Shown piece after piece: positions 7,016 to 36,723 of a DNA stretch of 41,056 nt. Positions within the stretch are counted from its first letter, which is position 1; each line of letters opens with the position of its first letter. Below the pieces are notes generated by a model. It did no database searches and was not told the origin of the DNA. It saw only the letters and a list, made by a program, of their open reading frames with translations. The position numbers and the translations under genes are program-made. This DNA is from a virus: positions 1-41,056 of IMG/VR virus record IMGVR_UViG_3300022939_000047; one strand, 5' to 3'.

Positions 7016-7502
7016 AACCTTTTAGTATATTTATAGTCTTTTCTGCACTCTCATGGATGATTCCGATACCACCTGCATCTTCCCATGCTTTGATGTTCTT
7101 TGGTCTATCATCAATAAGGACACTACCTTTCTCTGCAAATGCAGCTTTTTGACTACCACTGTAAGTACAAGTCACAACCACTGTAGGGTCGATATACTTT
7201 CTTACCCACTTGTTCTTATCATACACTACTAACTCTCTGTTCACTTTACCAGCAGCAGTTAGTATCTCCCAAGGAACACCAGTGTGTTTGATGTATCCTA
7301 TGAGGTCTGCATAATCGACCATTGGAGGTAATAGTCCAAATAGTCTTTTGTTAGTTAATTCTTCTTTCCTGAGGTCATACTCAGAATGACCAGCGTCATC
7401 ACTGGTTAATGGTTTACCCAACATTTCACTGCATCCTGCAAGGAAATCGGCAACCACTCCGTCCATATCGACGAAGATTCTTTTCACTACTTTATTTTCC
7501 AT
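6990..7502 (-). CDS. 5'(3')-deoxyribonucleotidase-like HAD phosphatase
   Basis: The roughly 170-aa protein has HAD motifs in order: FVDMDGVVADF (nucleophile and acid/base Asp), WEILTAAG (motif II, Thr), KAAFAEKG (motif III Lys) and VLIDDRPKNIKAWEDAGG (motif IV acids). DMDGVVADF and the short cap are typical of the 5'(3')-deoxyribonucleotidase family, which removes phosphate from dNMPs. The frame is open to 7538, but a strong promoter overlaps that part and its -10 box ends six bases before the ATG at 7500-7502, which I take as the start. It would shape the nucleotide pool with MazG and ribonucleotide reductase. Confidence 0.8.
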   Translation of the reverse strand: MENKVVKRIFVDMDGVVADFLAGCSEMLGKPLTSDDAGHSEYDLRKEELTNKRLFGLLPPMVDYADLIGYIKHTGVPWEILTAAGKVNRELVVYDKNKWVRKYIDPTVVVTCTYSGSQKAAFAEKGSVLIDDRPKNIKAWEDAGGIGIIHESAEKTINILKGLRNGKSGT

Positions 7503-7538
7503 ACTGTTAGTATAGTGCATTTTGGGTAGCTTTGTCAA
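7503..7538 (-). promoter_or_regulatory. Sigma70-type promoter for a leaderless mRNA
   Basis: On the minus strand TTGACA (7533-7538), 18 bases, TATACT (7509-7514), six bases, then ATG. The expected first base of the RNA is the A of the start codon. A short inverted repeat (ATACT/AGTAT) covers the -10 end and the start codon. Confidence 0.75.
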
Positions 7539-7551
7539 GCTTTTTTAACAC

Positions 7552-7977
7552 TTATTTTACCCAAAACATGTCGTGAATTAACTCCTCTTTTTTGTATGCT
7601 TCCAGTTCCCATGGTTGTCGTGAGTATGGTTTATGCACCACATTGTGGGCTTTCCAGTTACGACATGTAGGTGATAATTCACCCTTCAGAAACTGTTTTG
7701 CATGAATTAATTCATGTGCAAGTGTCAACATCATCTGATCAAGTGTCAAATTACCCTTGAATATCTCAATCTCTACGTTGTGTTTATCACCTAAACAGTA
7801 ACCATAGACATCACCATCTAATCCTTTCTTAAATGAGATATCAATGACTACATTTCGACGTAATCGTGGCATAAAATAATGCAACACGTTACGTACATAC
7901 TTCGTTATACGTTTCTTGTCTCGGATTTGTCCGTGGAAATCAACATGGATATTGTCAAAGTATATCTTCTTCGTCAT
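7552..7977 (-). CDS. SprT-like zinc metalloprotease
   Basis: The 141-aa protein carries LAHELIHAKQFLKGEL, an HExxH zinc site at residues 88-92, and PWELEA near the end, which may supply the third ligand. This is the SprT/Spartan-like peptidase pattern, whose cellular members cut DNA-bound proteins. VIDISFKKGLDGDVYGYC before the site is the usual beta region of the fold. Phage homologues are common but their targets are unknown. Its start overlaps the upstream zinc-ribbon gene by 23 bases. Confidence 0.8.
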   Translation of the reverse strand: MTKKIYFDNIHVDFHGQIRDKKRITKYVRNVLHYFMPRLRRNVVIDISFKKGLDGDVYGYCLGDKHNVEIEIFKGNLTLDQMMLTLAHELIHAKQFLKGELSPTCRNWKAHNVVHKPYSRQPWELEAYKKEELIHDMFWVK

Positions 7978-8149
7978 GTTCTAATTCACTTTCCTCTTCG
8001 TCATCGTAAATAACTTCACCACATAATGGACAGAATTCAACAGGAGGTAACTCCTCCTCATATTCATGATTTGTAGTGTCTAATTTAATTTTCAGTTCCA
8101 TATCTAGATCACAATGATCGCAATACAGTTGTATGTTCTTAGTCGTCAT
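7955..8149 (-). CDS. Small zinc-ribbon protein
   Basis: The 64-aa protein has two CxxC pairs (YCDHCD at residues 9-12 and FCPLCG near residue 39), giving a likely single zinc ribbon, followed by a very acidic tail (YDDEEESELEHDEEDIL). It overlaps the SprT-like gene by 23 bases and the upstream gene by 11. Zinc ribbons next to SprT domains often belong to the same functional unit, so a partner role is possible; this is inference. Confidence 0.7.
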   Translation of the reverse strand: MTTKNIQLYCDHCDLDMELKIKLDTTNHEYEEELPPVEFCPLCGEVIYDDEEESELEHDEEDIL

Positions 8150-8408
8150 AATTGGGTACGTAATCGTCTCTCGCTAGTCCAGTCTTGACAATGATTTTAT
8201 CCCATAGAGATTCAAATGATTTCTTTTGACCATCTAATACTGCATAGGGAAGTGGATGTTTTGCATCTGACTCAGAGAAGTCTAATCCTGCAGTATATAC
8301 CCTTACCTCTTGAAACTCCCTATCGATCATTCGAAATAGATGCACCCATCTAGCACAGATCACGTCTTGTTTGTCTTTAGAGGGTAAGTATAACTTATAT
8401 GTACGCAC
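8139..8408 (-). CDS. Unknown 89-aa protein, start uncertain
   Basis: The frame opens with GTG at 8406-8408 and encodes RTYKLYLPSKDK..., ending DDYVPNYDD. LPYAVLDGQKKSFESLWDKI resembles the end of a thioredoxin-like fold, but no cysteine pair is present. A promoter-like TTGACA-18-TATACT overlaps the first ten codons, so either the true start is further in or the promoter serves genes downstream. It lies between glutaredoxin and the zinc-ribbon gene. Function unknown. Confidence 0.55.
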   Translation of the reverse strand: MRTYKLYLPSKDKQDVICARWVHLFRMIDREFQEVRVYTAGLDFSESDAKHPLPYAVLDGQKKSFESLWDKIIVKTGLARDDYVPNYDD

Positions 8409-8416
8409 AATGTCAA
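8387..8416 (-). promoter_or_regulatory. Candidate sigma70-type promoter overlapping a gene start
   Basis: TTGACA (8411-8416), 18 bases, TATACT (8387-8392) on the minus strand. Both boxes equal those of the HAD phosphatase promoter. The predicted start is inside the 89-aa frame and no ATG follows at the usual six bases, so its target is unclear. Confidence 0.45.
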
Positions 8417-8438
8417 GCTCTTTTATTTTCGTTTAAAA

Positions 8439-8681
8439 TCAGATGGTTATGTCACCAATCTGACTGTCTGACCACTCTTTGAGCTCAGTATAACCCCCAA
8501 TATTGACCTCATCTACCCTAATTTGGGGAAATGTACGTGCAGTTGGGAAGGTTTCAAACAACTCTTCAGTGGTAAAATCTGTACCTAAGGACAGGTACGA
8601 ATATGCATATCCTTTCTGTTCGCATAATGCTTTTGCTTTGTCACAAAAAGGACACTGTGGTTTTCCGTATATTTCTATCAT
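8439..8681 (-). CDS. Glutaredoxin
   Basis: The 80-aa protein has the CPFC active site (residues 10-13) in MIEIYGKPQCPFCDKAK. A TFPQIRVDEVNIGG segment supplies the cis-Pro and the GG turn that holds glutathione. Length and motifs fit a class I glutaredoxin like T4 NrdC. It should reduce the C-terminal cysteines of the phage ribonucleotide reductase, whose beta-subunit gene lies 200 bases upstream. The start overlaps the preceding stop (ATGA). Confidence 0.92.
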   Translation of the reverse strand: MIEIYGKPQCPFCDKAKALCEQKGYAYSYLSLGTDFTTEELFETFPTARTFPQIRVDEVNIGGYTELKEWSDSQIGDITI

Positions 8682-8890
8682 AGTTTTATTGCCAGTAATA
8701 TGAAAATACCCATCAAGATTAGATTAGTTGTTGCAATCAGAATACCTAAAATGGTGTGATACCAAATCCATCTAGTCTTGTAAGCATTTTCGATTGTTAA
8801 TTCATCAGGGTCAGGAGATTTCTCTGCAACCTTTCGTATTGCATCATCCTCTTCCTTAGACCCCCATAATATTTCGTGCCATTTTCTCAT
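8678..8890 (-). CDS. Small membrane protein between nrdB and glutaredoxin
   Basis: The 70-aa protein has a soluble charged N-terminus (MRKWHEILWGSKEEDDAIRK) and a C-terminal membrane segment (TILGILIATTNLILMGIFILLAIKL), probably one long or two short spans. ATGA overlaps join it to nrdB and to the glutaredoxin gene, so all three are translated together. Function unknown. Confidence 0.7.
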   Translation of the reverse strand: MRKWHEILWGSKEEDDAIRKVAEKSPDPDELTIENAYKTRWIWYHTILGILIATTNLILMGIFILLAIKL

Positions 8891-9984
8891 AATTTAAAGT
8901 CTGCAAAAGTGTCATCTGACACATCTTGTTTAATACCACCAATCACATAAGATTCAATCTCTGTCTCTTGTGGTGCATTCTGTAGTCCTCTACTGTTGAA
9001 CCAGTGTTTAGTCCATGGTAAAGGGTTATTTGTTGAAGAGATATCATAGATAGGATTTAGTCCTATTGCACGTAATCTCTTATTACAAATATATTCTATA
9101 TATTGATTCAACAAAGGCACACTTAGTCCAATCATAGAACCATTCTTAAATAAGAACTCAGCCCATTCCTTTTCTTGACTGACTGCATTCTCATATAATT
9201 CGTAAACTTCTTTCTCACAATCCTTCATGACCTTGTTCATGAGTTTATCGTTCTCATGGTTCTTGTAACACTTCAGAATGTGTTGTGACACTGCAAGGTG
9301 TTGTGATTCGTCTCTTGCAATGAAAGATATAATCTTTGCACTACCTTCCATCAGTTTCAGTTCTCCGAATCCAAATGAACATGCAAAAGAGACGAAGAAT
9401 CGTATACCTTCTAGGATATTAACTGAGATAAGTGCAAGGTATAATGCCTTATATAAGTCATAGTCATCGACCTTGAGTCCTAGTAACCTTCTTCGTCCCA
9501 ATGCAATAAACTCGTCGTACTTTTCTGTTACCATTTCTGCACGTTTTACAATTGCAGGTTCATCTAAGATAGTGTCAAAGATGTCACTAGGGTCTGCATA
9601 TACATTCTTAATAATATGTGTATATGATCTACTATGGATTGTCTCCATGAAGTCCCATGTGATAATGCAAGACTCTAGTTCAGGTAAGGACACAAAGGGT
9701 AAAAATGCTATGGAGGGCGCCCTTCCCTGAACAGAATCAAGAAGTGTTTGATATCTCAGGTTTGATGTAAAAATATGTTTTTGTGCATCATTCAGAGTTG
9801 CGTAATCAGACCTGTCTTTTTGTAATGACACTTCTTCAGGTCTCCAAAAGAAACCTAATTGTGTTTGTGTTAGTTTATCAAATATAGGGTATTTGAACTC
9901 ATCAAATCTTTGAGTGTTCAAAGGTTCACCAAAGAATATCTTTTGTTTGGTGAAGTCTACATTCTTTTTGTTAAAAACTGTCAT
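8887..9984 (-). CDS. nrdB: Class Ia ribonucleotide reductase, beta subunit
   Basis: This 365-aa protein has the di-iron ligands and radical tyrosine of NrdB: ITWDFMETIHSRSYTHI supplies Glu, His and the Tyr of the ETIHSRSY motif, LEGIRFFVSFACSF the next Glu, and FIARDESQHLA the last Glu and His. It makes the tyrosyl radical used by NrdA to turn ribonucleotides into deoxyribonucleotides. The length is near that of T4 NrdB. It overlaps a 57-aa gene by 14 bases. A 2OG oxygenase gene and the 57-aa gene separate it from nrdA. Confidence 0.96.
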   Translation of the reverse strand: MTVFNKKNVDFTKQKIFFGEPLNTQRFDEFKYPIFDKLTQTQLGFFWRPEEVSLQKDRSDYATLNDAQKHIFTSNLRYQTLLDSVQGRAPSIAFLPFVSLPELESCIITWDFMETIHSRSYTHIIKNVYADPSDIFDTILDEPAIVKRAEMVTEKYDEFIALGRRRLLGLKVDDYDLYKALYLALISVNILEGIRFFVSFACSFGFGELKLMEGSAKIISFIARDESQHLAVSQHILKCYKNHENDKLMNKVMKDCEKEVYELYENAVSQEKEWAEFLFKNGSMIGLSVPLLNQYIEYICNKRLRAIGLNPIYDISSTNNPLPWTKHWFNSRGLQNAPQETEIESYVIGGIKQDVSDDTFADFKL

Positions 9985-10144
9985 ATCCTAAGTCCTTGTA
10001 CTTCTTCGCAAGTTTTTCTGCTCTTTCTTTTGTTTCTCTTCTAAAACTTACTTCTTGTCCGTTATAAAATTCAGTGATAGTGTAACGTCTAGAATTCTCA
10101 TTTGGAATAATAGACACTTGATGGCCTTCGCATTCAAAAATCAT
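9971..10144 (-). CDS. 57-aa basic protein between nrdB and a 2OG oxygenase gene
   Basis: The frame starts at ATG 10142-10144, overlapping the oxygenase stop as ATGA, and ends in TAA inside the first codons of nrdB. The translation begins MIFECEGHQVSIIPNENSRR and has a basic helix (RRETKERAEKLAKKYKDLG). The overlaps on both sides argue for real translation, and its end supplies an AGGAT before the nrdB start. No family recognised. Confidence 0.7.
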   Translation of the reverse strand: MIFECEGHQVSIIPNENSRRYTITEFYNGQEVSFRRETKERAEKLAKKYKDLGYDSF

Positions 10145-11133: not shown

Positions 11134-13446
11134 CTATATTGCACATGCCTCGCAGTCTTCCTCATCTTCTTGGTAATTACTCATTACGTTAGCTGCATCA
11201 TCTACTGCACTTGGTAGTTCTTCTAATACATCTTCTTTCTTACCATCCATAGTATTCTGATAGTAAGAAGTTTTCCATCCGTACTTATATGTAGTCAATA
11301 AGTCACGTGCCATAACTGAAATAGGTACTTCACCGTTCTCATAGTTCTCAGGATTGTATGACCAATTACCTGAGATTGCTTGATCAAAGAACTTCTGCAT
11401 CACTGCAACCACATTGATATATCCTGTATTGTCTTTCATATCCCATAGTAGTGTATATGCAGACTTCAGGTGTGAGTACTGAGGTACGATTTGTTTCAGT
11501 GTACCCTTCTTACTCTTCTTGACACTTAGATAGTCTCTAGGTGGTTCAATACCGTTTGTTGCGTTACAAACAACACTAGAACTCTCTGAAGGCATCTGTG
11601 CAGTCAGTGTAGAGTGTCTTAATCCAAACTCTTTGATATCTTTTCTGAGTCCTTTCCAGTCCATGTATAAGTTGTTAGGTGTAATCTCATCAACATCTTT
11701 CTTATATGTGTCGATAGGTAAAACACCATCTGCATATTTTGTTCTGTCAAAATACTCACATGCACCTTTTTCTTTTGCAACCGTGTTGGACGATTTTAAC
11801 AGATAATACTGGAACTTCTCTGTAAGTTCATGCACCAAAGACCATGCACCTTCATCACTGTACTTGAGTTTGTTCTTTGCAAGATAGTGTGCAAGACCAA
11901 TGTATCCAATACCTAATGATCTACGTGCAAGTGTTGACCTCTTTGCGGCTTCGACTGGATAGTTCTGATAGTCGATTAACTCCTCCAGTCCTCTTACTGC
12001 AAGGTCACATAGGTTTTCAAGTTCATCCTCCTTGATAAGTCCTACATTAACTGCAGACAATATACACAGTGCGATCTCCCCCTCACCATCGATATGTTCG
12101 ATTGGGTCTGTGGGGAGTGTAATTTCTTGACATAGGTTACTCATGTTTACTTTGTCTTTAAAACTACTGTGAGAATTACTGTGATCTATGTTCATGATAT
12201 AGATTCTGCCAGTCTCTGCACGTTCTTTTAATAAATCAGTAATTAATTCTCTCGCACTAATCTTAGTTTTAGGTATGGACGTTGCACGTTCATACTTCTC
12301 ATAGAGTTCATCGAACTCAGGTGTACCAAATGCATCATATAAGCCAGGCACATCATGTGGAGAGAATAGTGTTATTTCTCCATTTGAAAGGAAACGTTTA
12401 TAGAAGAGTTCGGATAACTGTATCGAGTAGTCCAACTTCCTAACTCTGTTGTCTTCAGTACCTTTGTTATTTTTAAGGACAATAATGTCTTCGATTTCTT
12501 GGTGCCAGATTGGGAAATGGACTGTTGCACTTCCACCTCTGACTCCGTTTTGGGTACAACATCTAACTGTTGATTCGAATTTTTTGAGAAAGGGAATAAC
12601 TCCAGTATGTTGGACTTCACCACCTCTGATTCTTGCACCCAATCCTCTGATTCTTCCTGCGTTGATTCCGATACCTGCACGTTGAGCAACGTATCTTCCG
12701 ATAGCCATGTCTGAACTGAAGATTGACCCCAAGGTATCATCGGAGTCAACGAGGACACAACTTGCAAACTGTCTGAGTGGAGTTCTAACTCCTGACATGA
12801 TTGGTGTTGGTATGTTAATTTTGAAAGTTGATATGGCATCATAGTATCGTTTAATGTATTCAAGTCTATTCTCCTTGTATTCTTTGAATAGTGTCATTGC
12901 AATTAAAATGTACATGAACTGTGGTGTTTCATATACAGTACTTGTTGATCTGTCCTGAACCAAATACTTATCAACTACCTGTTGCAATCCTGCATAAGTG
13001 TAATCTAAGTCTCTACCATGTTTGATGTATTTGTTCAGTGTTTCAAATTCTTCATCTGAATAATGGTTTAGTATGTCATCATCATACACACCATGTTCTA
13101 TATTTCTTTCTACAATCTCTTTGAGTGATGGATAGATTTCTGAGTCTTTCCATTTAGTATTGAACACCTGTTTCTGAACTGCAAACAATAGTAGTCTAGA
13201 TGCAACAAATTGATAGTTTGGTGATTCTAACGAAATCAGATCACTTGCACTCTTGACAAGTATCTTTTGGATTTCTTTAGTGGTGATGCCATCATAAAAC
13301 TGTAACCCACTATTCATTTCAACCAATGACTCTGATACACCTGTAATACCTCTACAGGCCTTCTCTACCATTTTGTGGATTTTATCTAAATTGATTTCTA
13401 CTTTTGAACCGTCAGACTTGACTACCTTGATGTCCGTGTTACTCAT
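11134..13446 (-). CDS. nrdA: Class Ia ribonucleotide reductase, alpha subunit
   Basis: The 770-aa protein begins MSNTDIKVVKSDG with an ATP-cone-like segment (VEINLDKIHKMVEKACRG). It holds the catalytic parts of NrdA: RQFASCVLVD (reductive Cys), MSNLCQEITLPT (NxCxE radical site) and GYIGLAHYL. A C-terminal CEAC gives the cysteine pair re-reduced by glutaredoxin. It reduces NDPs to dNDPs with NrdB. The frame is open to 13500, but the ATG at 13444-13446 overlaps the primase stop as ATGA and matches the family start. Confidence 0.97.
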   Translation of the reverse strand: MSNTDIKVVKSDGSKVEINLDKIHKMVEKACRGITGVSESLVEMNSGLQFYDGITTKEIQKILVKSASDLISLESPNYQFVASRLLLFAVQKQVFNTKWKDSEIYPSLKEIVERNIEHGVYDDDILNHYSDEEFETLNKYIKHGRDLDYTYAGLQQVVDKYLVQDRSTSTVYETPQFMYILIAMTLFKEYKENRLEYIKRYYDAISTFKINIPTPIMSGVRTPLRQFASCVLVDSDDTLGSIFSSDMAIGRYVAQRAGIGINAGRIRGLGARIRGGEVQHTGVIPFLKKFESTVRCCTQNGVRGGSATVHFPIWHQEIEDIIVLKNNKGTEDNRVRKLDYSIQLSELFYKRFLSNGEITLFSPHDVPGLYDAFGTPEFDELYEKYERATSIPKTKISARELITDLLKERAETGRIYIMNIDHSNSHSSFKDKVNMSNLCQEITLPTDPIEHIDGEGEIALCILSAVNVGLIKEDELENLCDLAVRGLEELIDYQNYPVEAAKRSTLARRSLGIGYIGLAHYLAKNKLKYSDEGAWSLVHELTEKFQYYLLKSSNTVAKEKGACEYFDRTKYADGVLPIDTYKKDVDEITPNNLYMDWKGLRKDIKEFGLRHSTLTAQMPSESSSVVCNATNGIEPPRDYLSVKKSKKGTLKQIVPQYSHLKSAYTLLWDMKDNTGYINVVAVMQKFFDQAISGNWSYNPENYENGEVPISVMARDLLTTYKYGWKTSYYQNTMDGKKEDVLEELPSAVDDAANVMSNYQEDEEDCEACAI

Positions 13447-14480
13447 ATTTTCTTGTACTCCGTTAGTTTTAATTTTGCAGAGAGACCATTGTATGTACAA
13501 GAGTTAATAATGTCTACTACTTTATCTACTGTTAGTCCACTCATAATCATATCATTTATATCTTTTAATTCTCCTACTCGTTTATCATCCCAAATGCACA
13601 CGTTCCATCCGTCATCGATTACACCATCTATTTTCTTGATGATTTCTTCGTTTCTAGGTTCGTTGTCGTAGATAAGTATTGCATTCTCTTTTAAATTCTT
13701 ATCAATCTTTTTAAAATCACTACCACCTACTGCAATACTGTTTGGTAGGAATAAACTATCTATTGGCCCCTCTGTGACATAGATAGTATTTGATTTGTCC
13801 ACATTATTCAGGTTATAGATGAGTGGAACGTCATCTATGAATCGCATGGTAAGGTAACGTAATGGTGAGTCATTTATTGCACGTCCACTTACACCTAACA
13901 ATTCCCCATCATCATTGATGAATGGGATGACAACTCTAGGGTCATTACCCAAGACTCTGTCTTTATATTTGAGAGACAGATGTGAGAGTGATTGTGCATT
14001 TTGGACGAACCATAATGATCTTATCGCATCATCAGGAATTAGACGTTGTTGAAGATACTCTCTTGCAACAATTTTATCCCATGCACCGTGACACACTGCT
14101 TTCAATGTCTCTTCAGTTTTATATAGTGATTCTTGACGGTCAACCTTGGGTTTGAATTTGAATGCACTTGAGGGAGGCATACGTTGAGGTTGTCGTCTCC
14201 CCTTACCACTTTCTTTCAACCATTCCTTCACATATTCTTTGTGAATCACAGGAAAGTTTTCCTTTATAAAATTAACTGATGATGTGGATTTACCACAATT
14301 GTGACATTTATAGATGTACGACTGGTCTACAGCAAAGTGATAACCACGTGCCTTGAATGTGTTTTTAGATGAATCACCACAGTATGGACATCTGTGGTTT
14401 AATGTGTTCTCATTTACCCATTTAGCCCTGTCCAGTGAGGACATGACCATATTGAGATATTTTCTCTCTAACCATAGCAT
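13443..14480 (-). CDS. 61: DNA primase (T4 gp61-like)
   Basis: The 345-aa protein has an N-terminal zinc site (HRCPYCGDSSK, then YKCHNCGKST) and a Toprim-type core: IYVTEGPIDSLFLPNS (catalytic Glu), AVGGSDF and ILIYDNEPRN (DxD-like). Length equals that of T4 gp61, which makes RNA primers with the gp41 helicase. The ATG at 14478-14480 lies six bases after a TATAAT box, so the mRNA would be leaderless. The start region sits in a large inverted repeat (14460-14511). Confidence 0.93.
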   Translation of the reverse strand: MLWLERKYLNMVMSSLDRAKWVNENTLNHRCPYCGDSSKNTFKARGYHFAVDQSYIYKCHNCGKSTSSVNFIKENFPVIHKEYVKEWLKESGKGRRQPQRMPPSSAFKFKPKVDRQESLYKTEETLKAVCHGAWDKIVAREYLQQRLIPDDAIRSLWFVQNAQSLSHLSLKYKDRVLGNDPRVVIPFINDDGELLGVSGRAINDSPLRYLTMRFIDDVPLIYNLNNVDKSNTIYVTEGPIDSLFLPNSIAVGGSDFKKIDKNLKENAILIYDNEPRNEEIIKKIDGVIDDGWNVCIWDDKRVGELKDINDMIMSGLTVDKVVDIINSCTYNGLSAKLKLTEYKKI

Positions 14481-14511
14481 GTATCTATTATACTATGGTT
14501 TTGAGAGAAAA
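14460..14511 (-). promoter_or_regulatory. Palindrome enclosing the primase -10 box and start codon
   Basis: Plus-strand arms TTTTCTCTCTAACCATAG (14460-14477) and CTATGGTTTTGAGAGAAAA (14493-14511) pair over 17 bases, with one 1x2 mismatch. The 15-base loop holds exactly the minus-strand TATAAT (14487-14492), six bases and ATG. The -35 region is poor (TAGATT at 17 bases), suggesting an activator or modified polymerase. No T tract follows, so it is not a terminator; an operator is the likeliest reading. Confidence 0.75.
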
Positions 14512-16463: not shown

Positions 16464-17222
16464 TTATCTAAGTCTTGTCAACACATCATATAATTTTTTT
16501 CTTTTCTTAGGTTTCCAATGTGCAACGTCACTACCTGTTCCTGCGACTGCACTTCCTGTTGCGTTGACTGGTGCATCCTCCATCATATCAAACTTCAGAT
16601 ACTTCATCAGTTTGTTTGCGAGGTCATGTCCTGCTTCTATATCAGATGGGAAGTGTACTCCCATTCTAACTCTACCCATTGCAGACTTGATTGCACCTTC
16701 AAATAATCCATTCTTATGTTCAGGGTAGATTGTTGCATAATAGTTTGCAACTAATTTTGGTTGCACTGTATGTCCTGATGGATACGATGGAGTCTTTGCA
16801 GTCTCCGTTTTATATCTATCGAAAGGGATATTAAGTGCTTCTGCGATTTGATATGGTCTTGGTCTATTAAACATGTTCTTGTAGTGTTTAATGATTGGTT
16901 TTGCCTGTTGACCAAGATATACCAGTCGTTCTTCATCATAATACAGTTCGTTCTCCTCCATATATTCTTGTATGTAATAGTATGGATTTTCATCTGTGTT
17001 GACGTATTCTAATTCATGTTCTTTAGTCATGGAATCTCTCATCTTTTTGACTTCTTCGAGTTCCATACGTGTTTGTTTAGAATCGTTCTTATCAGGTGTC
17101 GGAAGTGTAATGTCTTTCCAGTCACCTGAGAATGCTTCAATCTTTTTATATTTGGGTTTCTTTAATTCGTCTTTTGGTGCGAATCCCATCAGATTGATGG
17201 TTTGAATTGTCTCAATATACAT
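16464..17222 (-). CDS. PAP2-family phosphatase
   Basis: The roughly 252-aa protein has the three acid-phosphatase motifs in order: KNMFNRPRP (motif 1, KxxxxxxRP-like), YPSGHT (motif 2) and GRVRMGVHFPSDIEAGHDLA (motif 3 with His and Asp). The family removes phosphate from lipids or small molecules through a His-phosphate intermediate. No membrane spans are seen, so it resembles soluble bacterial acid phosphatases. Two adjacent ATGs (17225, 17222) are possible starts and overlap the upstream stop. In the late region; substrate unknown. Confidence 0.82.
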   Translation of the reverse strand: MYIETIQTINLMGFAPKDELKKPKYKKIEAFSGDWKDITLPTPDKNDSKQTRMELEEVKKMRDSMTKEHELEYVNTDENPYYYIQEYMEENELYYDEERLVYLGQQAKPIIKHYKNMFNRPRPYQIAEALNIPFDRYKTETAKTPSYPSGHTVQPKLVANYYATIYPEHKNGLFEGAIKSAMGRVRMGVHFPSDIEAGHDLANKLMKYLKFDMMEDAPVNATGSAVAGTGSDVAHWKPKKRKKLYDVLTRLR

Positions 17223-17814
17223 CATCTGCAGTTACCAGTATTCTTTTACCTTCACATACAGCTGCGTATACTTTTATACCGTAAAACTGTGAGTGTAGGT
17301 TGTTTACAAATAGTTCCGATTTTGCTTCGAAGACATTTTCAAAAGGGTAATTCACTTGTGTTGTATGTCTTCTTAATCTATACTTACCACGTTCAAGATC
17401 ATCAATGTTTGCAAGTTCTTCTGCAATCATTTCTGCATTGATGATACCTTCTTCCTTCAACCATTTGTAGTATTCTTCTTCTAGTCTCTCTAATTGATCA
17501 TCATCTAACTCTTGGTTCTCTTTCAACAATGCAAGTGCAACAGCGTATGATGCAAATTGTGTTTTACCAAACGGAACCTTTTCGATAATTTTCTTTAGAT
17601 TAAAGACGAGTCTATGTAGAGGTGTAAGTGATGCCTTTTCCTCTGCAGTTTTAGGGTTATTCTCGACTTTTTGATTTGACCCTTCAACAGATTTTAGTTT
17701 AATTCTGTTACCCTTATCATCAATAAACCCAAATTTATATGCGGCTTGTTTGGTAAAAGGTGTAGTCAACATCTTTAAAATACGAAAGACTATTAATGTA
17801 TCTACTACTCTCAT
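17212..17814 (-). CDS. Conserved late protein of unknown function
   Basis: The 200-aa protein begins MRVVDTLIVFRILKMLTTPF, followed by KFGFIDDKGNRIKLKSVEG, a helical core (TPLHRLVFNLKKIIEKVPFGKTQFASYAVALALLKEN), an acidic coiled segment and a beta-rich end. I recall this arrangement in other T4-like marine phages but no assigned role. The ATG sits five bases after CCTAAATA, so a late transcript would start at the start codon. The C-terminus overlaps the PAP2 gene by about 11-14 bases. Confidence 0.75.
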   Translation of the reverse strand: MRVVDTLIVFRILKMLTTPFTKQAAYKFGFIDDKGNRIKLKSVEGSNQKVENNPKTAEEKASLTPLHRLVFNLKKIIEKVPFGKTQFASYAVALALLKENQELDDDQLERLEEEYYKWLKEEGIINAEMIAEELANIDDLERGKYRLRRHTTQVNYPFENVFEAKSELFVNNLHSQFYGIKVYAAVCEGKRILVTADDVY

Positions 17815-17827
17815 ACTACTATTTAGG
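17815..17827 (-). promoter_or_regulatory. Late-type promoter abutting an ATG
   Basis: CCTAAATA (17820-17827), GTAGT, then ATG on the minus strand. With the T4 late spacing the first transcribed base is the A of ATG. The -10 differs from TATAAATA at its first two bases. Confidence 0.6.
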
Positions 17828-18784: not shown

Positions 18785-19048
18785 CTATGCGTTTGTTGCT
18801 ACTGGAGTTCCAAAAACAGTTGCACTATCTGAAAAAACTTCATCAGTTGGGTCTTTGTGTAAGTCGATTGATTGACCTGCACCTATATGAATATCCCCAA
18901 TTAATACGTTTGCAGATGTCTCTACTGACACTATGTGAAATGCAGTGTCACTATTGTATAATCTAACAACTGTTGATGAACCGAAGTTACTACCGTTAGT
19001 TGAACCAACTTGTAGTGCTTCATGTCCTGCCAATAACTTATATTTCAT
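18785..19048 (-). CDS. Small beta-rich late protein, probable virion component
   Basis: The 87-aa protein begins MKYKLLAGHEALQVG. It is Gly/Ser/Thr-rich with alternating beta strands (STVVRLYNSDTAFHIVSVET, ANVLIGDIHIGAGQSIDLHK), the make-up of small head- or tail-decorating proteins. It lies in the late operon next to a similar-sized acidic protein. No family named. Confidence 0.65.
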   Translation of the reverse strand: MKYKLLAGHEALQVGSTNGSNFGSSTVVRLYNSDTAFHIVSVETSANVLIGDIHIGAGQSIDLHKDPTDEVFSDSATVFGTPVATNA

Positions 19049-25149: not shown

Positions 25150-26451
25150 CTACTTCTTTTTTGCATCTAACTCTGCCTGTTTCCATTCAAGTGCTTTCTT
25201 GTTTGCAGGGAATGAACTTGACCATCCCATCATCTTACCATACAATGCATTAACCTTTTTCTTTAAAGCTGCATGATCATCATCATTTACAATCTCTATA
25301 AAGTTTTTACCAAATAACTTTTTAAACCCATTAACGTTCTTTTGTGATGCATTCCAATCTTTCTCTACAACTTCCTTTGGAAGTTTTCTTGCACGTTCAT
25401 CATTTCTTGCCTGTGCAAACTCTAATGAAGTGTTAACGAATACCATTTTGTATTCGTAACCTGCATTGTCTAATAACTTCTTATAGTTTTTAATCTTGGA
25501 TGCCTTTGCACCTGTAGTGTCAAATATCATTCCGAGTCTACCTCTGATATACGCACTCATGTTTTTTGCAGTAATCTCTTTTGCACGTGCTCTGATTGGG
25601 TCTCTAAGTTCTGCATCCATGTTTCTCAAGTCAAGACCAAGTCCTGCCTTTTTCAGACCAGTCTCAAATGCCTTGTCAGTGTTTACAATCTTCAATCCTA
25701 ATGCAGTCAATCCTAGTTCACTAACAACTGTTGATTTACCTGAACCAGGCCCACCCATCAAGAACACTGCCTTGAAGATGCCTGGGTCATACACACCCTC
25801 TTGTATTAAGTCTTCTACCATGTATTTTGGTGCAGAGTATAAGTCTTCTGTTAGACCCATTCCCTTACGTATTGCTTTATATAATTTCTGTGCATGACGT
25901 TTACCAGTAGAAGGAACCCCATCTTTGAATGAGTCGAAGTCACCCTTCTCTGCGAATGCTCTCATTTTAGATGCACTCATTCCTGATACATCGTCGGCGT
26001 CAGGGTCACGATCACCTGCAGATATAACTTGAATCTCATCAAATTTATAGAAACCGTGACGACCTTTCACCGAATTATACTTGTTAATGATAGTGTCAAA
26101 CTCTCTAATTCTATCTGAACCTACGACCATTCTAATCTTAGTGTAACCTTTATCGTGTAAGAATGTTAGGATTTGAAAAATCTGTTTTACATCTGCATCG
26201 ACAACATTTACCTTCTTACCAAAGAATGCACGTAAAAATTTAATTTTATCTTTGTGCGATAAAGGATTCTTAATCTTATCGTTTGAATGTGATGAAAACA
26301 ATAATGCATCACCATATCCTTTTGCAACTTTGTTTAACTTATCAACTAATTTTTCGTGACCGTTTGTAGGAGGATTAAATCGACCAAAGGTGAACACTGC
26401 ACCTTTTCCTTTTGCCTCTGATAACCACGATGTAAATGTTTTATTTGGCAT
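25150..26451 (-). CDS. Nucleotidylyltransferase fused to P-loop kinase
   Basis: The 433-aa protein has two enzyme domains. Residues 18-170: VFTFGRFNPPTNGHEKL (nucleotide-binding, HxGH-like), MVVGSDR and SGMSASKMR (the ISxxxxR-like motif) of the NMN adenylyl-/cytidylyl-transferase superfamily. Residues 228-400: FLMGGPGSGKSTVV (Walker A) and a zeta-toxin/polynucleotide-kinase-like core. The two-domain order is like NadR (NMN adenylyltransferase plus ribosylnicotinamide kinase), but the kinase looks closer to AAA_33. The first residues (KTFTSWLSEAKG) resemble a T4 capsid-targeting sequence with an LSE/A cleavage site, so it may be packaged. Substrates unproven. Confidence 0.8.
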   Translation of the reverse strand: MPNKTFTSWLSEAKGKGAVFTFGRFNPPTNGHEKLVDKLNKVAKGYGDALLFSSHSNDKIKNPLSHKDKIKFLRAFFGKKVNVVDADVKQIFQILTFLHDKGYTKIRMVVGSDRIREFDTIINKYNSVKGRHGFYKFDEIQVISAGDRDPDADDVSGMSASKMRAFAEKGDFDSFKDGVPSTGKRHAQKLYKAIRKGMGLTEDLYSAPKYMVEDLIQEGVYDPGIFKAVFLMGGPGSGKSTVVSELGLTALGLKIVNTDKAFETGLKKAGLGLDLRNMDAELRDPIRARAKEITAKNMSAYIRGRLGMIFDTTGAKASKIKNYKKLLDNAGYEYKMVFVNTSLEFAQARNDERARKLPKEVVEKDWNASQKNVNGFKKLFGKNFIEIVNDDDHAALKKKVNALYGKMMGWSSSFPANKKALEWKQAELDAKKK

Positions 26452-26809
26452 TTTTCTTAGTCTTCTCCTGTTCCTTCTTTCTAATCATTGGTAAGAGTTT
26501 CTTTGCAAGTTTCTTAATTGCACCTTTTTTCTTGTCTAATTTTTTCTCTAATGCAGCCTTTCCACTCATACCCAAATCATTCTTATCTTTATCTTGTAAG
26601 AGTTTCTTTGCGACCATTCCACGTGCCTGTTTCTCTGCACGTTTCATAAGTTTCTTAGGGTCAAGAACCTTTTTCTTCATCGCCTTTTTACGTTTTGCGA
26701 GAATCTTATGTTTGTTCTTTTGGAATGCTTTCTTTTTCTTCAGACGAGTTGCCATTGAGTCTGCTTCTTGCATCTCATCTAAGTAATTTTTGAAACTTTT
26801 TAATTCCAT
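26441..26809 (-). CDS. Very basic late protein with capsid-targeting-like start
   Basis: The 122-aa protein begins MELKSFKNYLDEMQEADSM and then is extremely Lys-rich (RLKKKKAFQKNKHKILAKRKKAMKKK onward). The N-terminal ten residues resemble T4 capsid-targeting sequences, and the basic body suits binding packaged DNA. The frame is open to 26839, but a GATAAATA late element places the RNA start at the ATG 26807-26809, chosen as the start. The C-terminus overlaps the kinase-fusion gene by 11 bases. Confidence 0.7.
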   Translation of the reverse strand: MELKSFKNYLDEMQEADSMATRLKKKKAFQKNKHKILAKRKKAMKKKVLDPKKLMKRAEKQARGMVAKKLLQDKDKNDLGMSGKAALEKKLDKKKGAIKKLAKKLLPMIRKKEQEKTKKNAK

Positions 26810-26822
26810 TATACTATTTATC
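26810..26822 (-). promoter_or_regulatory. Late-type promoter abutting an ATG
   Basis: GATAAATA (26815-26822), GTATA, then ATG on the minus strand. With T4 late spacing the RNA starts at the A of ATG. It overlaps the last codons of the gene upstream. Confidence 0.62.
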
Positions 26823-28022
26823 CCAATTTTTAGCAGCATTAAAATTATTCTGACTGAATTCCATTCGGTCTACTAACTTAACTGCCTTACCTTCATGGTC
26901 AATTGCAACATATCCTTCAGGATTAACTGCTTTGAATCCTGTTGAGGTCTTAACAAATGTACCTATACTTTTAACTTTATTCAAACCATCTACGATTAAT
27001 TGTTTTGCAACAACCATCAATTCTTGAAACTTGGTTAGTGCTTCGATCATTTTCTTTAATGCACGTAACTCATTGTAGAGTTGTTCACCAATCTCTCTCT
27101 TAATTGCCTTAGTCTTTTCTTGTTTTACTTTACCAACTACCTTCACTCTCCAATAATTTTCGAAGTGTTTTAAATAACCGTTGTAGTTTGGTTTGAATTT
27201 ACCTTGACGTATCTGTGCGTTACAATAGGTTTTATAGGTTGCACCTGGCCCCTTCTTTTCTATTGTTTGTTGTATTTCTTTGAACTTCTTTAAGTCCTTT
27301 CTTTTGATATTGTGGAATTGTTTACCCACTGCAGTCAAATAGTTTGATAGTTTAAGTGTCTCAGTTGCAGTAAGTGTCGCATTGCCTGATACATCTTTAT
27401 AGGATGCATCATCCATCCATACGTCTTTAGATGCACCCAGTTTTGATATGTTTGCACCGAATGATGCAGATAAGTCCTCGATAGTTCCACCTGTATAGGT
27501 AGTGTGAAATACAATACCAAGTTTTGCATTAGCGATTTGTTTACCTAGTTCTGATTTTGTTTGAACACGATACACTATAGTGTTAGGCCCAAACTGAATA
27601 TAGGATTCGAAGTCGTCCTTGACCATCTGTTTGTCTTCGTCAGTGAACATTAGATCACCCTGAAGTATCTCGTTACCCCATGACAGTCCTGAAAGATACT
27701 TAAAACATGTAAGGAACTTCTTTTCTAAGTCTCCTGATATCTCAGATGCATCTTTGATTTCTTGTTCTGAAGTGTAAAATAAGGGGGTTTGATTGAATAA
27801 TGATTTCTTTGCAACAAAGAAACGACCATCTTCAGGATGTTTCCCACAAAAGATTGCAGGAGCACCATCCCATTTGACTGTCATATTGACACCCTTTTTG
27901 GTGTTTCCCTTCATCATGTCACGAAGACCACGAAGGAAGTTTATAGATGCACGCCCACCATCAATACCATTGTTGATGATCTCGTCTTCTATGTGTTCTA
28001 AATGTAGATTCTTGACTGCCAT
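26814..28022 (-). CDS. Ligase-like covalent nucleotidyltransferase (DUF6267-like)
   Basis: The 402-aa protein has TVKWDGAPAIFCG at residues 48-60, matching the KxDG active-site motif of ATP-dependent ligases with Lys50 as the expected AMP acceptor. Later GNEILQGDLMF fits motif III. Near the end NPEGYVAIDHEGKAVKLVD fits motifs IV-V. I believe the family is catalogued as DUF6267 in marine phages. The length suits an RNA-ligase-like enzyme, but no target is known. It precedes the basic protein and the nucleotidylyltransferase-kinase gene in a late cassette. Confidence 0.7.
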   Translation of the reverse strand: MAVKNLHLEHIEDEIINNGIDGGRASINFLRGLRDMMKGNTKKGVNMTVKWDGAPAIFCGKHPEDGRFFVAKKSLFNQTPLFYTSEQEIKDASEISGDLEKKFLTCFKYLSGLSWGNEILQGDLMFTDEDKQMVKDDFESYIQFGPNTIVYRVQTKSELGKQIANAKLGIVFHTTYTGGTIEDLSASFGANISKLGASKDVWMDDASYKDVSGNATLTATETLKLSNYLTAVGKQFHNIKRKDLKKFKEIQQTIEKKGPGATYKTYCNAQIRQGKFKPNYNGYLKHFENYWRVKVVGKVKQEKTKAIKREIGEQLYNELRALKKMIEALTKFQELMVVAKQLIVDGLNKVKSIGTFVKTSTGFKAVNPEGYVAIDHEGKAVKLVDRMEFSQNNFNAAKNWDK

Positions 28023-28066
28023 AATAGTAGTATATCACAATTTCCTGTGTAATACTACTATTTATG
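28023..28066 (-). promoter_or_regulatory. Late promoter with 11-bp palindrome before the ATG
   Basis: CATAAATA (28059-28066) on the minus strand starts a leader to the ATG at 28022. AATAGTAGTAT (28023-28033) and ATACTACTATT (28052-28062) are perfect complements, with AGGA in the 18-base loop. The second arm also reads TATACT six bases before the ATG, a possible alternative -10 box. Confidence 0.6.
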
Positions 28067-29416: not shown

Positions 29417-29863
29417 TTAAAAATCTCCTTCTGCAACTTGCACTACAGTGGTTCCTCTTTTTCTCCACATGTCGACAACTTTATTTCTGTCATCAAACAC
29501 TAAGTCAATAGTACCACCCATTTCTTCAAATGTGTCTGCAAGGTCAGACTTAAACTCTTCATCAGGTCTGTAGTCACCATCAGGTCTTAAAAATAATCCT
29601 TTGTGACCATCCCCAACCCATTCTGAAATCTGTTTTTCAGTAATCTCTCTTTCAGACTCATTTCTTGCAGAGAAGAATGCAACATGATCTCCCTGTGCAA
29701 TGAATCTCTTTGCGACATCAACAACCCACTGCATAGGTGTGTCGTTTACAGTTTCTGCTCTGAAAGACTTCCAATCTGCAGGTTTCTGTTCCACAAAATG
29801 TCTTCTGTGTTCAACGTCAGCGATTGTTCCGTCAATGTCAAAGATTACATTCCTAATTTTCAT
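29417..29863 (-). CDS. PseT-type polynucleotide 3'-phosphatase domain protein
   Basis: The 148-aa protein has NVIFDIDGTIADVEHRR (HAD motif I), AFFSARNESER (motif II) and LVFDDRNKVVDMWRKRG..QVAEGDF at the end. The last motif matches the C-terminus of T4 polynucleotide kinase/phosphatase (VVEMWRR...QVASGDF). Only the phosphatase half is present; there is no P-loop kinase. It should remove 3'-phosphates from RNA or DNA ends. The ATG at 29861-29863 lies six bases after TATAAT, so I reject the longer frame to 29899. Confidence 0.85.
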   Translation of the reverse strand: MKIRNVIFDIDGTIADVEHRRHFVEQKPADWKSFRAETVNDTPMQWVVDVAKRFIAQGDHVAFFSARNESEREITEKQISEWVGDGHKGLFLRPDGDYRPDEEFKSDLADTFEEMGGTIDLVFDDRNKVVDMWRKRGTTVVQVAEGDF

Positions 29864-29899
29864 ACTACTATTATATGAAAAAGTGACCCCCATTGTCAA
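29864..29899 (-). promoter_or_regulatory. Consensus sigma70 promoter for a leaderless mRNA
   Basis: TTGACA (29894-29899), 18 bases, TATAAT (29870-29875), AGTAGT, then ATG on the minus strand. Both boxes are perfect. An 8-bp inverted repeat, TTTTCATA (29857-29864) and TATGAAAA (29874-29881), encloses the -10 box and the start codon. Confidence 0.88.
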
Positions 29900-33065: not shown

Positions 33066-33085
33066 TTTTTATTTCTCTCATAAAG

Positions 33086-33110
33086 TTAAGGGGAACTCAG
33101 TCCCCCTTAA
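33086..33110 (-). terminator. Hairpin before the thermonuclease gene
   Basis: TTAAGGGG and CCCCTTAA form a perfect 8-bp stem around nine bases. On the minus strand only CTTTATG follows, so termination would be weak. It may instead shape the leader of the nuclease mRNA. Confidence 0.45.
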
Positions 33111-33168: not shown

Positions 33169-33188
33169 TGCTGTTGGAATGACTTCTT

Positions 33189-33461: not shown

Positions 33462-33521
33462 AATTATCTCCAAATTTGGATAAATCTGTTACACCTCCAA
33501 CTGAGAGTGTAACCCCACATT

Positions 33522-33529
33522 TATTTATG
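33522..33529 (-). promoter_or_regulatory. Late-promoter-like element with downstream hairpin
   Basis: CATAAATA on the minus strand, about 60 bases before the lipoprotein start. The leader holds a GTTACAC/GTGTAAC stem extended by CTC/GAG. It overlaps the stop of the upstream gene. Confidence 0.5.
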
Positions 33530-33800
33530 TAAGATAACAACCTGAAGACTTTAGTTTGAGGTCAATCTCGTTATGCACCTCGTATGGGTATGGTACTGGT
33601 TCTATAGATAGATTTTCTGCAGCTATCATTAGGTCTTCTAATCTGAGTCTTTCTTTGACGTATGTAATAATAATCACTATTGCACCTATAAATGCGAATA
33701 TGTGTAACATTTCATTTGGAAACATAATCGTAAGTCCAATAATATGTGCAACCAGCACACTATACACATAAAACTTTATACTAATCAGTAGGTGCCACAT
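33525..33800 (-). CDS. Small membrane protein
   Basis: The 91-aa protein has two hydrophobic spans (ISIKFYVYSVLVAHIIGLTIMF and LHIFAFIGAIVIIITYV) followed by a soluble acidic part ending LKSSGCYLT. It overlaps the preceding 55-aa gene by 20 bases. Function unknown. Confidence 0.62.
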   Translation of the reverse strand: MWHLLISIKFYVYSVLVAHIIGLTIMFPNEMLHIFAFIGAIVIIITYVKERLRLEDLMIAAENLSIEPVPYPYEVHNEIDLKLKSSGCYLT

Positions 33801-33948
33801 TCAACAACAAATCCTTAAACTCATTCGTGTGCCAATAACTATCTAATGTGATATCAACTACTAGTGCAATCAATACCATTGTTAAGATAATCCCCAAATA
33901 TAAATTGACGAATGCATTAATTTTCATCCATCGTATCAAGTGTTTCAT
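33781..33948 (-). CDS. 55-aa single-span membrane protein
   Basis: ATG 33946-33948 overlaps the upstream stop as ATGA; TAG ends the frame at 33781. A basic start (MKHLIRWMKINAF) leads to one membrane span (VNLYLGIILTMVLIALVVDI) and a short polar tail. Overlaps on both sides support translation. It pairs with the next small membrane gene. Confidence 0.66.
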   Translation of the reverse strand: MKHLIRWMKINAFVNLYLGIILTMVLIALVVDITLDSYWHTNEFKDLLLNVAPTD

Positions 33949-34175
33949 TTTCTATTCCTAATAAATTCTAATTCTTTTTCCCAATTCCTTTTGTTAGTTT
34001 CTGCCTCACCACTACCGTGTTGTGCAAGAATTACTCGTCCACCGTCCATGTCAATACGAATAGAATCTGTACTGACTATCTCACCATATCTTCCAATAAA
34101 AACACCTGTCAATTCACCCTTAGTATCTTCAGGATGAAGACCATTTATTAATTCAACTAACTCTTCTTTTCTCAT
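33945..34175 (-). CDS. 76-aa protein downstream of DNA polymerase, unknown
   Basis: The protein begins MRKEELVELINGLHPED, then has beta-rich GELTGVFIGRYGEIVSTDSI and DMDGGRVILAQHG, ending in a Lys/Arg-rich helix. It is joined to the polymerase gene by an ATGA overlap. No family recognised. Confidence 0.65.
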   Translation of the reverse strand: MRKEELVELINGLHPEDTKGELTGVFIGRYGEIVSTDSIRIDMDGGRVILAQHGSGEAETNKRNWEKELEFIRNRK

Positions 34176-36688
34176 CCAAAAAATGAATCTAATGATGCAA
34201 CTGGTTCTACGTTCCAGTTGATCAGGTTAACAACTGCCTTCAGTGGTTCCACAAAGGCCTTATCAAATTGTAAATCGTGATCAACGAATCTGTGTAAATC
34301 AAACTCACGTGGAAGTGTTCCAGTGAATGAGATTACATTTTCATTGATGGGATTCGGTAGTGTCAGATATGTAAACATAATCTTCTCACCATTCTTAATC
34401 ATTTCATATCGCATGTTTAACTCCTTCTTCTTGAGAAGGTGGTTGTATAACAAAGAACCTCTAACGTGAATCGGTGTACCCTTAGAATAGATGTTAGTAC
34501 TGTCTGCATACTGAATCAGGTTTTTACATCCACGTGGGAATGCAACGTCCTCTACAGGTAGGTTCCTGAAGTCCTTACGTGCAGTCTCTACGAATTCCCA
34601 TAGTTCTTGTTCGTTACCCTGCATGACAACCTTGAATGCATCTTCAAGTTTCTTACGAATCCACATTGGTGTTGAAGACTTTGCAGTTTCAATACCCATC
34701 ATTTTAAGTTTGGGTTCTGCGAGTCTGACACCTTCGTTATCATGTACGTTTAGTATGTACCGTTTCTTTGCAGTCCAAATACCTCTGTCTGCAATTACCT
34801 CACGTCCCATCTGCATCTTTTGTTGGAATGCATTAGTGTAATCTGCGAGGTCTTGGTAACCATTTGCAATGACATCTTCTAGTTGACTTTCTGCCTTAGT
34901 GAGGAAGTCAATGATCTTTTCTTTAGGTGTATCTTCAGGGAAGATTTGTTTAACCATGTCATCCATGGTGATGTATACTGAGTCAGTGTCAATTGCAATC
35001 ACATAGTCTTTGTTGTCAGTCTTTAACACTTCGTTGAGATACTTGTTGATTGTTTTCTCAGCCCACTGGATGGACAACTGACCACTAAGTGTAATCGCCT
35101 CTGCGAGATCAATAGAGAAGAATGCGAAGTATTGATTTGCGAGAGCACCATAAGCAGAGTTCAGTGCAATCTTACGAACCTGTTGATTGTTGTATGCACG
35201 TTTGATAAGAACATCAAGTTCCTTTCTGCGTTTAGTATCTTTGCAAACTTCACGTTCCTTCTGATACTCAATCATTCTCTTCTTCCACATCCTACGTTCA
35301 TCGTAAAACTTTTCCATGAGTTCAGGAAGGAATCCTTGTTTGTCACGTTTGAACATGACTCCGTTAGGTGTGACACTTAAATCTTGTTGTTTGGTGTAGG
35401 ATAGATCACACTCTTTGTCCAACATTCGTTTGACATTAACATCTTGTCGATTACCAGTCACCATCTTCTCAGGTGAAATGTTGTATTGCATAATCAAGTG
35501 TGGATACAATGAGTTCAAGTCAAAAGACATAACCCAGTTGTGACCACCAACTAGTGGTTCCTTGACGTATGCACCTTGAATCGCATGTGTCTTATCATTA
35601 CCACTCTTCAGTCTTTGAGGTGGTGTCTGAATGTTTTGATCTTTAAGGAAGTTGTAGATGATGGTTTCCCAATACTTCACCATACCAAAGACATCAATGT
35701 AGTTACACTTCGCATTGTAGGCCATGGTTTGTGTTAGTTCTAGGAATCCTAGTTTGTCATCTAGGTCTTCAACAAGTGTAACGTCTTTGAGATTATACTC
35801 TAGGAACTTTGCATAGTCCTGTCGGTAAAGTGTATGAAGTGAACCATACTCTGAGTAATCAATCTTACCTGTACCCAATTCAACCTGTGCGATTGCTTCT
35901 AGTTTGTAGGATGGTTGGTTGACGAATGTATGTTTACGATAGAGTTCAAGATAGTCAAGAACATTAACACCATATAAAGTGTAGACCATGTTCTTCTGAT
36001 AACCTTGCGAGGTGAACTCTCTGACATCAGACATGTTCCATGGAGAAAGTTTCTTGTGTTCTCCCTCACCAAAGAGTCTGTCGATACGATTACAAAGATA
36101 TGTGATATCGAAACTGTTTACGTTCCATCCTGTAACAACGTCGAACCATTCACTTCTCCAATACTTGAGGAATTCAGTAAGTAGGAATGCTTCGTTTTTA
36201 CAGTTGTGATAAACGATGTCTGTTCTATTGTGTTCCCAAGGCCCGATACCAAAGACGTGTGCATCTTTACCGAATGGTTTGATGGTGATTGCATTGACTT
36301 TCTCAGTTGCAAGTGTTGGGTCAGGGAATCCATCTTCACACTCACACTCAATATCAAGTGTTGCAGTTTTAATTAGTTTAGGATTGTATTCAATGTCACC
36401 CTGAAACTTATCTGCGATGTAAGTGTAAACGTATCTGTCGTATCCATGGATTTGGAATCCTTCGACACCTGAATACTTTTCTCTGAACTTTCTTGCACCA
36501 CCCATAGAGTTGAGTTCAACAACTTCAAGTGGTCGACCATCTAATGCACGATAAGGTGTCTCACCTTTCTTGGATGGAATGAAATGTTTTGGACGATAGT
36601 TAATGGTAACCTTTTTCTTTTGGTTACCCTGATAACCTATGACAAGAATCTTGTCACGTGTTCGTGTTACATTTGTGTAGAAATCCAT
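34172..36688 (-). CDS. 43: Family B DNA polymerase (T4 gp43-like)
   Basis: The 838-aa protein has a 3'-5' exonuclease domain (TATLDIECECED, VTGWNVNSFDITYL) and the polymerase motifs in order: MSFDLNSLYPHLI (A), RKIALNSAYGALANQ (B) and IAIDTDSVYI (C). It is slightly shorter than T4 gp43 (898 aa) but keeps every catalytic acid I can check. It replicates the phage genome with gp41 and gp61. A perfect TTGACA promoter lies directly upstream with no room for a leader. Confidence 0.97.
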   Translation of the reverse strand: MDFYTNVTRTRDKILVIGYQGNQKKKVTINYRPKHFIPSKKGETPYRALDGRPLEVVELNSMGGARKFREKYSGVEGFQIHGYDRYVYTYIADKFQGDIEYNPKLIKTATLDIECECEDGFPDPTLATEKVNAITIKPFGKDAHVFGIGPWEHNRTDIVYHNCKNEAFLLTEFLKYWRSEWFDVVTGWNVNSFDITYLCNRIDRLFGEGEHKKLSPWNMSDVREFTSQGYQKNMVYTLYGVNVLDYLELYRKHTFVNQPSYKLEAIAQVELGTGKIDYSEYGSLHTLYRQDYAKFLEYNLKDVTLVEDLDDKLGFLELTQTMAYNAKCNYIDVFGMVKYWETIIYNFLKDQNIQTPPQRLKSGNDKTHAIQGAYVKEPLVGGHNWVMSFDLNSLYPHLIMQYNISPEKMVTGNRQDVNVKRMLDKECDLSYTKQQDLSVTPNGVMFKRDKQGFLPELMEKFYDERRMWKKRMIEYQKEREVCKDTKRRKELDVLIKRAYNNQQVRKIALNSAYGALANQYFAFFSIDLAEAITLSGQLSIQWAEKTINKYLNEVLKTDNKDYVIAIDTDSVYITMDDMVKQIFPEDTPKEKIIDFLTKAESQLEDVIANGYQDLADYTNAFQQKMQMGREVIADRGIWTAKKRYILNVHDNEGVRLAEPKLKMMGIETAKSSTPMWIRKKLEDAFKVVMQGNEQELWEFVETARKDFRNLPVEDVAFPRGCKNLIQYADSTNIYSKGTPIHVRGSLLYNHLLKKKELNMRYEMIKNGEKIMFTYLTLPNPINENVISFTGTLPREFDLHRFVDHDLQFDKAFVEPLKAVVNLINWNVEPVASLDSFFG

Positions 36689-36723
36689 ACTGTAATGATA
36701 CTACAGTAGGTCTATTCTGTCAA
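36688..36723 (-). promoter_or_regulatory. Sigma70 promoter of DNA polymerase, leaderless, palindromic
   Basis: TTGACA (36718-36723), 17 bases, TATCAT (36695-36700), TACAGT, then ATG on the minus strand. TACTGTA/TACAGTA (36688-36694 and 36702-36708) form a 7-bp inverted repeat around the -10 box. TTGACA is read as codons in the end of the upstream gene. Confidence 0.82.

Follow-up and report, generated by a model that had tools for sequence, protein, structure and literature searches.

The 41,056-nucleotide stretch of viral DNA analysed here (IMG/VR record IMGVR_UViG_3300022939_000047; hereafter the window) is part of a T4-like phage genome in which several minus-strand genes are preceded by a promoter whose geometry, judged from the spacing in two promoter classes, fits a predicted transcription start at the A of ATG. 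We consider it very likely, on sequence evidence, that early and late mRNAs of this phage are leaderless and stand beside ordinary genes led by a GGAG site. The leaderless interpretation had been proposed for four genes in an initial annotation of the window, and it gains support from a spacing that is far above chance, kept across many relatives and restricted to ATG, with codon-like variation starting right after it. The same phage is represented by a 151-kb record (G001, polymerase 100% identical), while a 130-kb record (G002) belongs to a relative.

Early promoters six bases from the start codon

On re-reading of the window, the four sites described as a -10 box, six bases and ATG were all found to be exact: TTGACA-18-TATACT-AACAGT-ATG ahead of a HAD gene, TATAAT-AGATAC-ATG with a weak -35 ahead of the primase, TTGACA-18-TATAAT-AGTAGT-ATG (12 of 12 consensus bases) ahead of a PNKP-type 3'-phosphatase, and TTGACA-17-TATCAT-TACAGT-ATG ahead of the DNA polymerase. 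A fifth early gene with the same layout, TTTACA-17-TATAAT-AACCTT-ATG at 1659, had escaped the initial annotation (Table 1). The promoters are of the sigma70 type, with a TTGACA-like -35, a spacer of 16-18 and a TATAAT-like -10, the -35 being poor in the primase and in some polymerase relatives. A plain consensus promoter scan of the window gave no more matches than shuffled sequence; the signal is the spacing to ATG and not the number of boxes. One further TTGACA-18-TATACT match (minus strand, 8387-8416) is not followed by ATG and lies in a reading frame conserved across the site in one relative (L117); given this conservation it is probably coding and was rejected as a promoter, a promoter inside the gene also being possible.

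The initial annotation had proposed a comparison of the six-base spacing with chance in related genomes, and the excess was indeed found. In 2.45 Mb of clade sequence, collapsing near-identical sites left 148 TTGACA-17/18-TANNNT sites, in clusters that are non-redundant at about 25% difference yet share ancestry, so that counts are not fully independent. ATG stood exactly 6 nucleotides past the -10 in 57 of the 148, as compared with a mean of 3.8 (standard deviation 2.6) at other distances, an excess of about 20 standard deviations. With the -35 reversed or scrambled, ATG at six was found in 0/43 and 2/122 sites, respectively, and a whole-record pattern scan of 14 records returned 40 forward matches vs. 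1 match to the reversed pattern. Since the count at six exceeded the other distances to this extent and the scrambled -35 controls were flat, chance can be set aside. Start codons at this distance were 57 ATG, 1 GTG and 1 TTG, in agreement with the restriction to AUG that marks leaderless genes. Single-genome distance histograms drawn without requiring a -35 were too noisy for use.

Gene by gene, the -10 lies at exactly six bases in 44/44 distinct upstreams of the polymerase and in 7/7 of a gene for an 800-amino-acid peptidase, in 23 of 33 distinct relatives for the HAD gene, and in 25/48 for the 3'-phosphatase (two mismatches at most), several others of which carry TAGCCT- or TAAGCT-like hexamers at the same spacing. 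For the primase, 53 distinct upstreams place it at 6 (21), 7 (19) or 8 (10), counts that may overlap. In one group of polymerase relatives TTGACA is gone, yet the -10 remains at its usual distance. Palindromes flanking the polymerase -10 (GTAGT..ACTAC, CTGTA..TACAG) are present in some groups and absent in others.

The preferred start of RNA polymerase has a purine at +1 preceded by a pyrimidine. Such a pyrimidine at -1 was counted in 118/119 early sites of the leaderless layout (related sequences) and in 82/87 late sites, as compared with 39/88 ATGs led by a GGAG site. No GGAG-like site precedes the ATGs of the polymerase, peptidase, HAD, 3'-phosphatase and primase genes in the upstreams examined. 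In the polymerase, codon-position entropy from the second codon was 0.35/0.29/1.15, which places the beginning of coding at the ATG of the predicted +1. In the 3'-phosphatase the catalytic DxDGT motif lies 8-9 codons from the ATG, too near to leave room for a later start. Mechanical open reading frame calls for the HAD and 3'-phosphatase genes begin on the TTG of TTGACA, and the shorter starts assigned by the initial annotation are therefore right for both; the match of the HAD gene to phrog_2643 (9e-35) was obtained with a frame starting one codon upstream of the 7502 ATG.

Table 1. Promoters and genes of the predicted leaderless layout in the window (CDS, coding sequence)
Feature	Position	Strand	Remarks
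Early promoter, HAD / 5'-nucleotidase-like gene	7503..7538	minus	TTGACA 7538-7533, spacer 18, TATACT 7514-7509, six bases 7508-7503
HAD / NT5C-like deoxyribonucleotidase CDS	6990..7502	minus	ATG 7502 at predicted +1; Pfam NT5C 1.1e-5
Primase -10 and six bases to ATG	14481..14492	minus	TATAAT 14492-14487; -35 weak
DNA primase (gp61-like) CDS	13443..14480	minus	ATG 14480; phrog_47 3e-71
Early promoter, 3'-phosphatase, with six bases	29864..29899	minus	TTGACA-18-TATAAT; consensus match
Polynucleotide 3'-phosphatase (PNKP phosphatase domain) CDS	29417..29863	minus	ATG 29863; Pfam HAD_PNKP 2.9e-27
Early promoter, DNA polymerase, with six bases	36689..36723	minus	TTGACA-17-TATCAT; spacing kept in relatives
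DNA polymerase gp43 CDS	34172..36688	minus	ATG 36688; phrog_262, 1026 bits
Fifth early promoter, with six bases	1660..1694	minus	TTTACA-17-TATAAT; relatives at 6-8
114-amino-acid gene (MGYLNLSN...)	1315..1659	minus	No function assigned; phrog_27048 1e-11
Late promoter box CTAAATA	17815..17826	minus	Box 17826-17820, five bases ahead of ATG 17814; G001 110044-110058
200-amino-acid late-promoter gene, predicted leaderless	17212..17814	minus	Late box at five
Late promoter box ATAAATA	26810..26821	minus	Five bases ahead of ATG 26809; G001 119039-119053
122-amino-acid late-promoter gene, predicted leaderless	26441..26809	minus	Start corrected from 26839

Late promoters five bases from the start codon

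The sigma70 layout of the initial annotation holds for the early genes, though not as the sole class, since late TAAATA promoters share the design with a spacing of five. T4-type late boxes (HTAAATA) show a sharp ATG peak at five bases, with four almost empty, and relatives of gp55, gp33 and gp45 are all encoded in G001. TAAATA-5-ATG sites numbered 11, 13, 9, 14, 10 and 11 in six clade records (background 0.6-1.4), and elsewhere 12 in HTVC008M, 7 in Mosig, 3 in Melnitz, 4 in T4 (p 0.07), 2 in P-SSM4 and none in Syn9 and S-SM2. Of the 198 CDS starts deposited for HTVC008M, 12 (CDS 7562, 19456, 31132 and 75830 among them) are exactly five bases past a late box, and the next bin contains 2. In T4 the late TATA box is located roughly one helical turn ahead of the transcription start (PMC2988020), and a box five bases from ATG would therefore make the A of ATG the +1 base. 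The portal gene has a late box at five bases in G001 and G002; the major capsid gene of G001 has a long leader and an AGAGGA site. At 18916-18943 of HTVC008M, late boxes in opposite orientations overlap (TATTTATATCTAAATA), and each gene of a divergent pair begins exactly five bases from its box.

Upstream of the DUF6267 gene (26814-28022, minus strand), positions 28023-28066 of the window hold a late box, CATAAATA, and below it an inverted repeat, AATAGTAGTAT ... ATACTACTATT, whose end abuts the ATG. About 28 relatives conserve the hairpin, though with altered arm sequences, and its 5' arm overlaps the late promoter; read-through RNA would therefore mask the DUF6267 start, and late RNA would leave it free. 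T4 genes e, soc and 49 are analogues of such a hairpin-masked start in read-through RNA. The TATACT-6-ATG at 28022 was considered as a sixth sigma70 leaderless gene and rejected, TATACT being the 3' arm of this conserved hairpin below the late box.

From the layout, its spacing and conservation, the codon signal and the distribution in the clade, we infer transcription starts, a lack of leaders and translation from a 5' AUG along the following lines. Host RNA polymerase with a sigma70-type factor would recognise the TTGACA-17/18-TATAAT-like early promoters and start on the purine six bases past the -10, which is the A of ATG. Once replication is under way, polymerase bound to the gp55-type sigma of the phage would recognise the TAAATA late boxes and start five bases past them, once more at this A. 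The resulting 5'-AUG mRNAs would be translated by ribosomes that bind the 5' AUG directly, with no Shine-Dalgarno site involved. Genes with a leader of 20-45 nucleotides and a GGAG site are driven by the same promoter families, so that the phage would use two translation modes side by side.

Genes with leaders and competing explanations

Across the clade, early promoters have a common extended form, TTGACAATGnnnnTCACTTTTTnn-TATACT. Among 64 clusters of this form, ATG stands at six in 33, a GGAG-type site with a start further down follows in 14, and 17 fit neither mode, several of these having ATG at 4, 7 or 9. With 14/64 GGAG-led and 17/64 neither, the ATG cannot be explained as just another element of the promoter consensus. 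A common spacer between -35 and -10, TTGACAATGnnnnTCACTTTTT, occurs in both leaderless and leadered early genes and could bind a phage or host factor.

Several observations weigh against a uniformly leaderless design. The primase, the gene at 1659 and some others tolerate 7-8 nucleotides, and leaders of 1-2 nucleotides may therefore occur. The -35 is lost in some polymerase relatives, and the whole promoter in part of the HAD and 3'-phosphatase relatives; read-through mRNA must therefore sometimes be translated. Early promoters of HTVC008M lie mostly 9-12 nucleotides from ATG, leaving a leader of about 3-6 nucleotides. At CobS-like genes the +1 ATG opens a frame of only 12-16 codons, the real start lying further down with a GGAG site. 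Finally, sites from the same gene family do not count as independent.

At the CobS-like and neighbouring small genes (L089 at G001 147762, and L111), the 12-16 codon frame (MMRNK...) stops close to the main gene's GGAG site, and these short frames are possible leaderless leader peptides. In HTVC008M the deposited GTG start of CobS (CDS 89857) is probably wrong, because it lies inside its own promoter (TTGACT-17-TAGGAT).

The -10 boxes at 7-8 nucleotides would also suit real promoters that start 1-5 nucleotides upstream of ATG and yield very short leaders that have no Shine-Dalgarno site, as would the HTVC008M polymerase and primase, whose early promoters stand 11-12 nucleotides from ATG, likewise without such a site. 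We regard this as improbable for the layout in general: the polymerase and the peptidase never depart from six, pyrimidine-A at -1/+1 is the start preferred by RNA polymerase, and late sites peak at five only. Even less plausible is an AT-rich translation signal next to ATG that merely resembles a -10, with RNAs arriving from upstream and translated without a Shine-Dalgarno site; some polymerase upstreams did keep TATAAT without TTGACA, and genes can sit inside operons, but the match extends to TTGACA 17-18 nucleotides further up, two different promoter boxes have two different exact spacings, and GGAG-led genes use the same promoter family without an adjacent ATG. Chance, or a side effect of AT-richness, could accommodate the uninformative plain scan of the window, but its probability is negligible in view of the size of the spacing excess, the flat controls, the codon-position signal and the agreement of the starts deposited for HTVC008M.

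Distribution, significance and known systems

By pairwise identities, the phage with this predicted leaderless layout belongs to the Kyanoviridae (T4-like), with T4-like core genes and cyano-, pelagi- and methylophages as nearest relatives. The window polymerase is 45% identical to that of Pelagibacter phage HTVC008M and 47-48% to those of cyanophages; the best relatives of the capsid protein are those of Methylophilales phage Melnitz (67%) and HTVC008M (65%). The host is possibly a SAR11-like marine heterotroph. The sole contig-scan match was a phage contig binned in a Sphingobacteriales metagenome-assembled genome, but such a host is unlikely because the promoters are of the TTGACA/TATAAT type.

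The early excess at six is clear in G001, another clade record (G015) and Mosig, weaker in other clade records (by a looser count), and absent in Syn9, S-SM2, T4 and Melnitz. For P-SSM4, whose 3 sites of this kind (p 0.009) have no consistent base at -1, we regard the excess as unproven. In cyanophages, T4 and Melnitz, ATG peaks at 19-33 nucleotides instead. The predicted leaderless design is thus seen in the window clade and in the two cultured pelagimyophages tested, HTVC008M and Mosig, but does not hold for T4-like phages at large, since T4, Syn9, S-SM2, P-SSM4 and Melnitz have leaders.

Ribosomal protein bS21 is encoded in G001 and G002 (Pfam), and its gene has its own TATAAT-6-ATG promoter in about a third of distinct upstreams: in the region of G001 68814-68713 and relatives L426-L498, nine distinct relatives have TATAAT exactly six from ATG and others have no promoter there. 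The bS21 of HTVC008M enters E. coli ribosomes (as cited in PMC9723584). That bS21 helps to select leaderless over GGAG-led mRNAs, or the reverse, is a speculative idea, and bS21 as the simple cause of the layout was not supported, since Melnitz encodes S21 without a leaderless peak. It is conceivable, albeit rather unlikely, that a whole branch of T4-like phages of SAR11-like marine heterotrophs runs a leaderless early and late programme parallel to the GGAG-led one, its own bS21, leaderless in part of the clade, tuning the ribosome between the two modes during infection.

In the literature searched, whose coverage did not take in the Syn9 start-site study (10.1038/ismej.2015.210), we found leaderless mRNAs described for neither T4-like phages nor pelagiphages, and within that coverage a leaderless early and late design has not been described before for the T4-like family. 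Phage leaderless mRNAs have so far been treated as rare and are known mainly from single repressor genes. Here the layout looks like a standing programme of an abundant and widespread marine phage group, covering genes for DNA polymerase, primase, repair and virion structure under two unrelated sigma factors. The spacing gives a rule for correcting start codons, and the prediction is testable in the cultured phages HTVC008M and Mosig; it also raises the questions of how hosts cope with mRNAs that begin 5'-AUG and for what reason bS21 is encoded by these phages.

As compared with T4 late promoters (TATAAATA, gp55/gp33/gp45), the clade of the window has the same TAAATA box and, in G001, encodes relatives of the same three factors; T4 boxes, however, lie mostly 12-33 nucleotides from ATG, with a weak excess at five that lacks the -1 pyrimidine, whereas five is the main peak in the clade. 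Syn9, S-SM2 and P-SSM4, Kyanoviridae like the window phage, share sigma70-like -35/-10 early and middle promoters, but with ATG about 21-26 nucleotides past the -10 and hence leaders of about 15 nucleotides or more. The pelagimyophages HTVC008M and Mosig EXVC030M both have the TAAATA-5-ATG late layout, and Mosig also the early spacing of six; HTVC008M differs from the clade in its distant polymerase and its early promoters.

In lambda cI (PRM) and P2 gene C the promoter makes the A of AUG the +1 base, and a Shine-Dalgarno site is lacking. The clade is predicted to do the same, but those two cases are lone repressor genes from temperate phages, whereas the genes concerned here serve replication, nucleotide metabolism and virion structure in presumably lytic T4-like phages, under two promoter classes. 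Lambda and P2 are among the phage sources of leaderless mRNAs, which in E. coli are few and mostly of mobile-element origin (PMC4633059). Leaderless genes are common in Mycobacterium (PMC4633059), where, as in the clade, a promoter directly upstream of the start codon is common and not exceptional; those, however, are host and not phage genomes, while in the clade of the window ATG alone is used and T4-type late promoters are involved.

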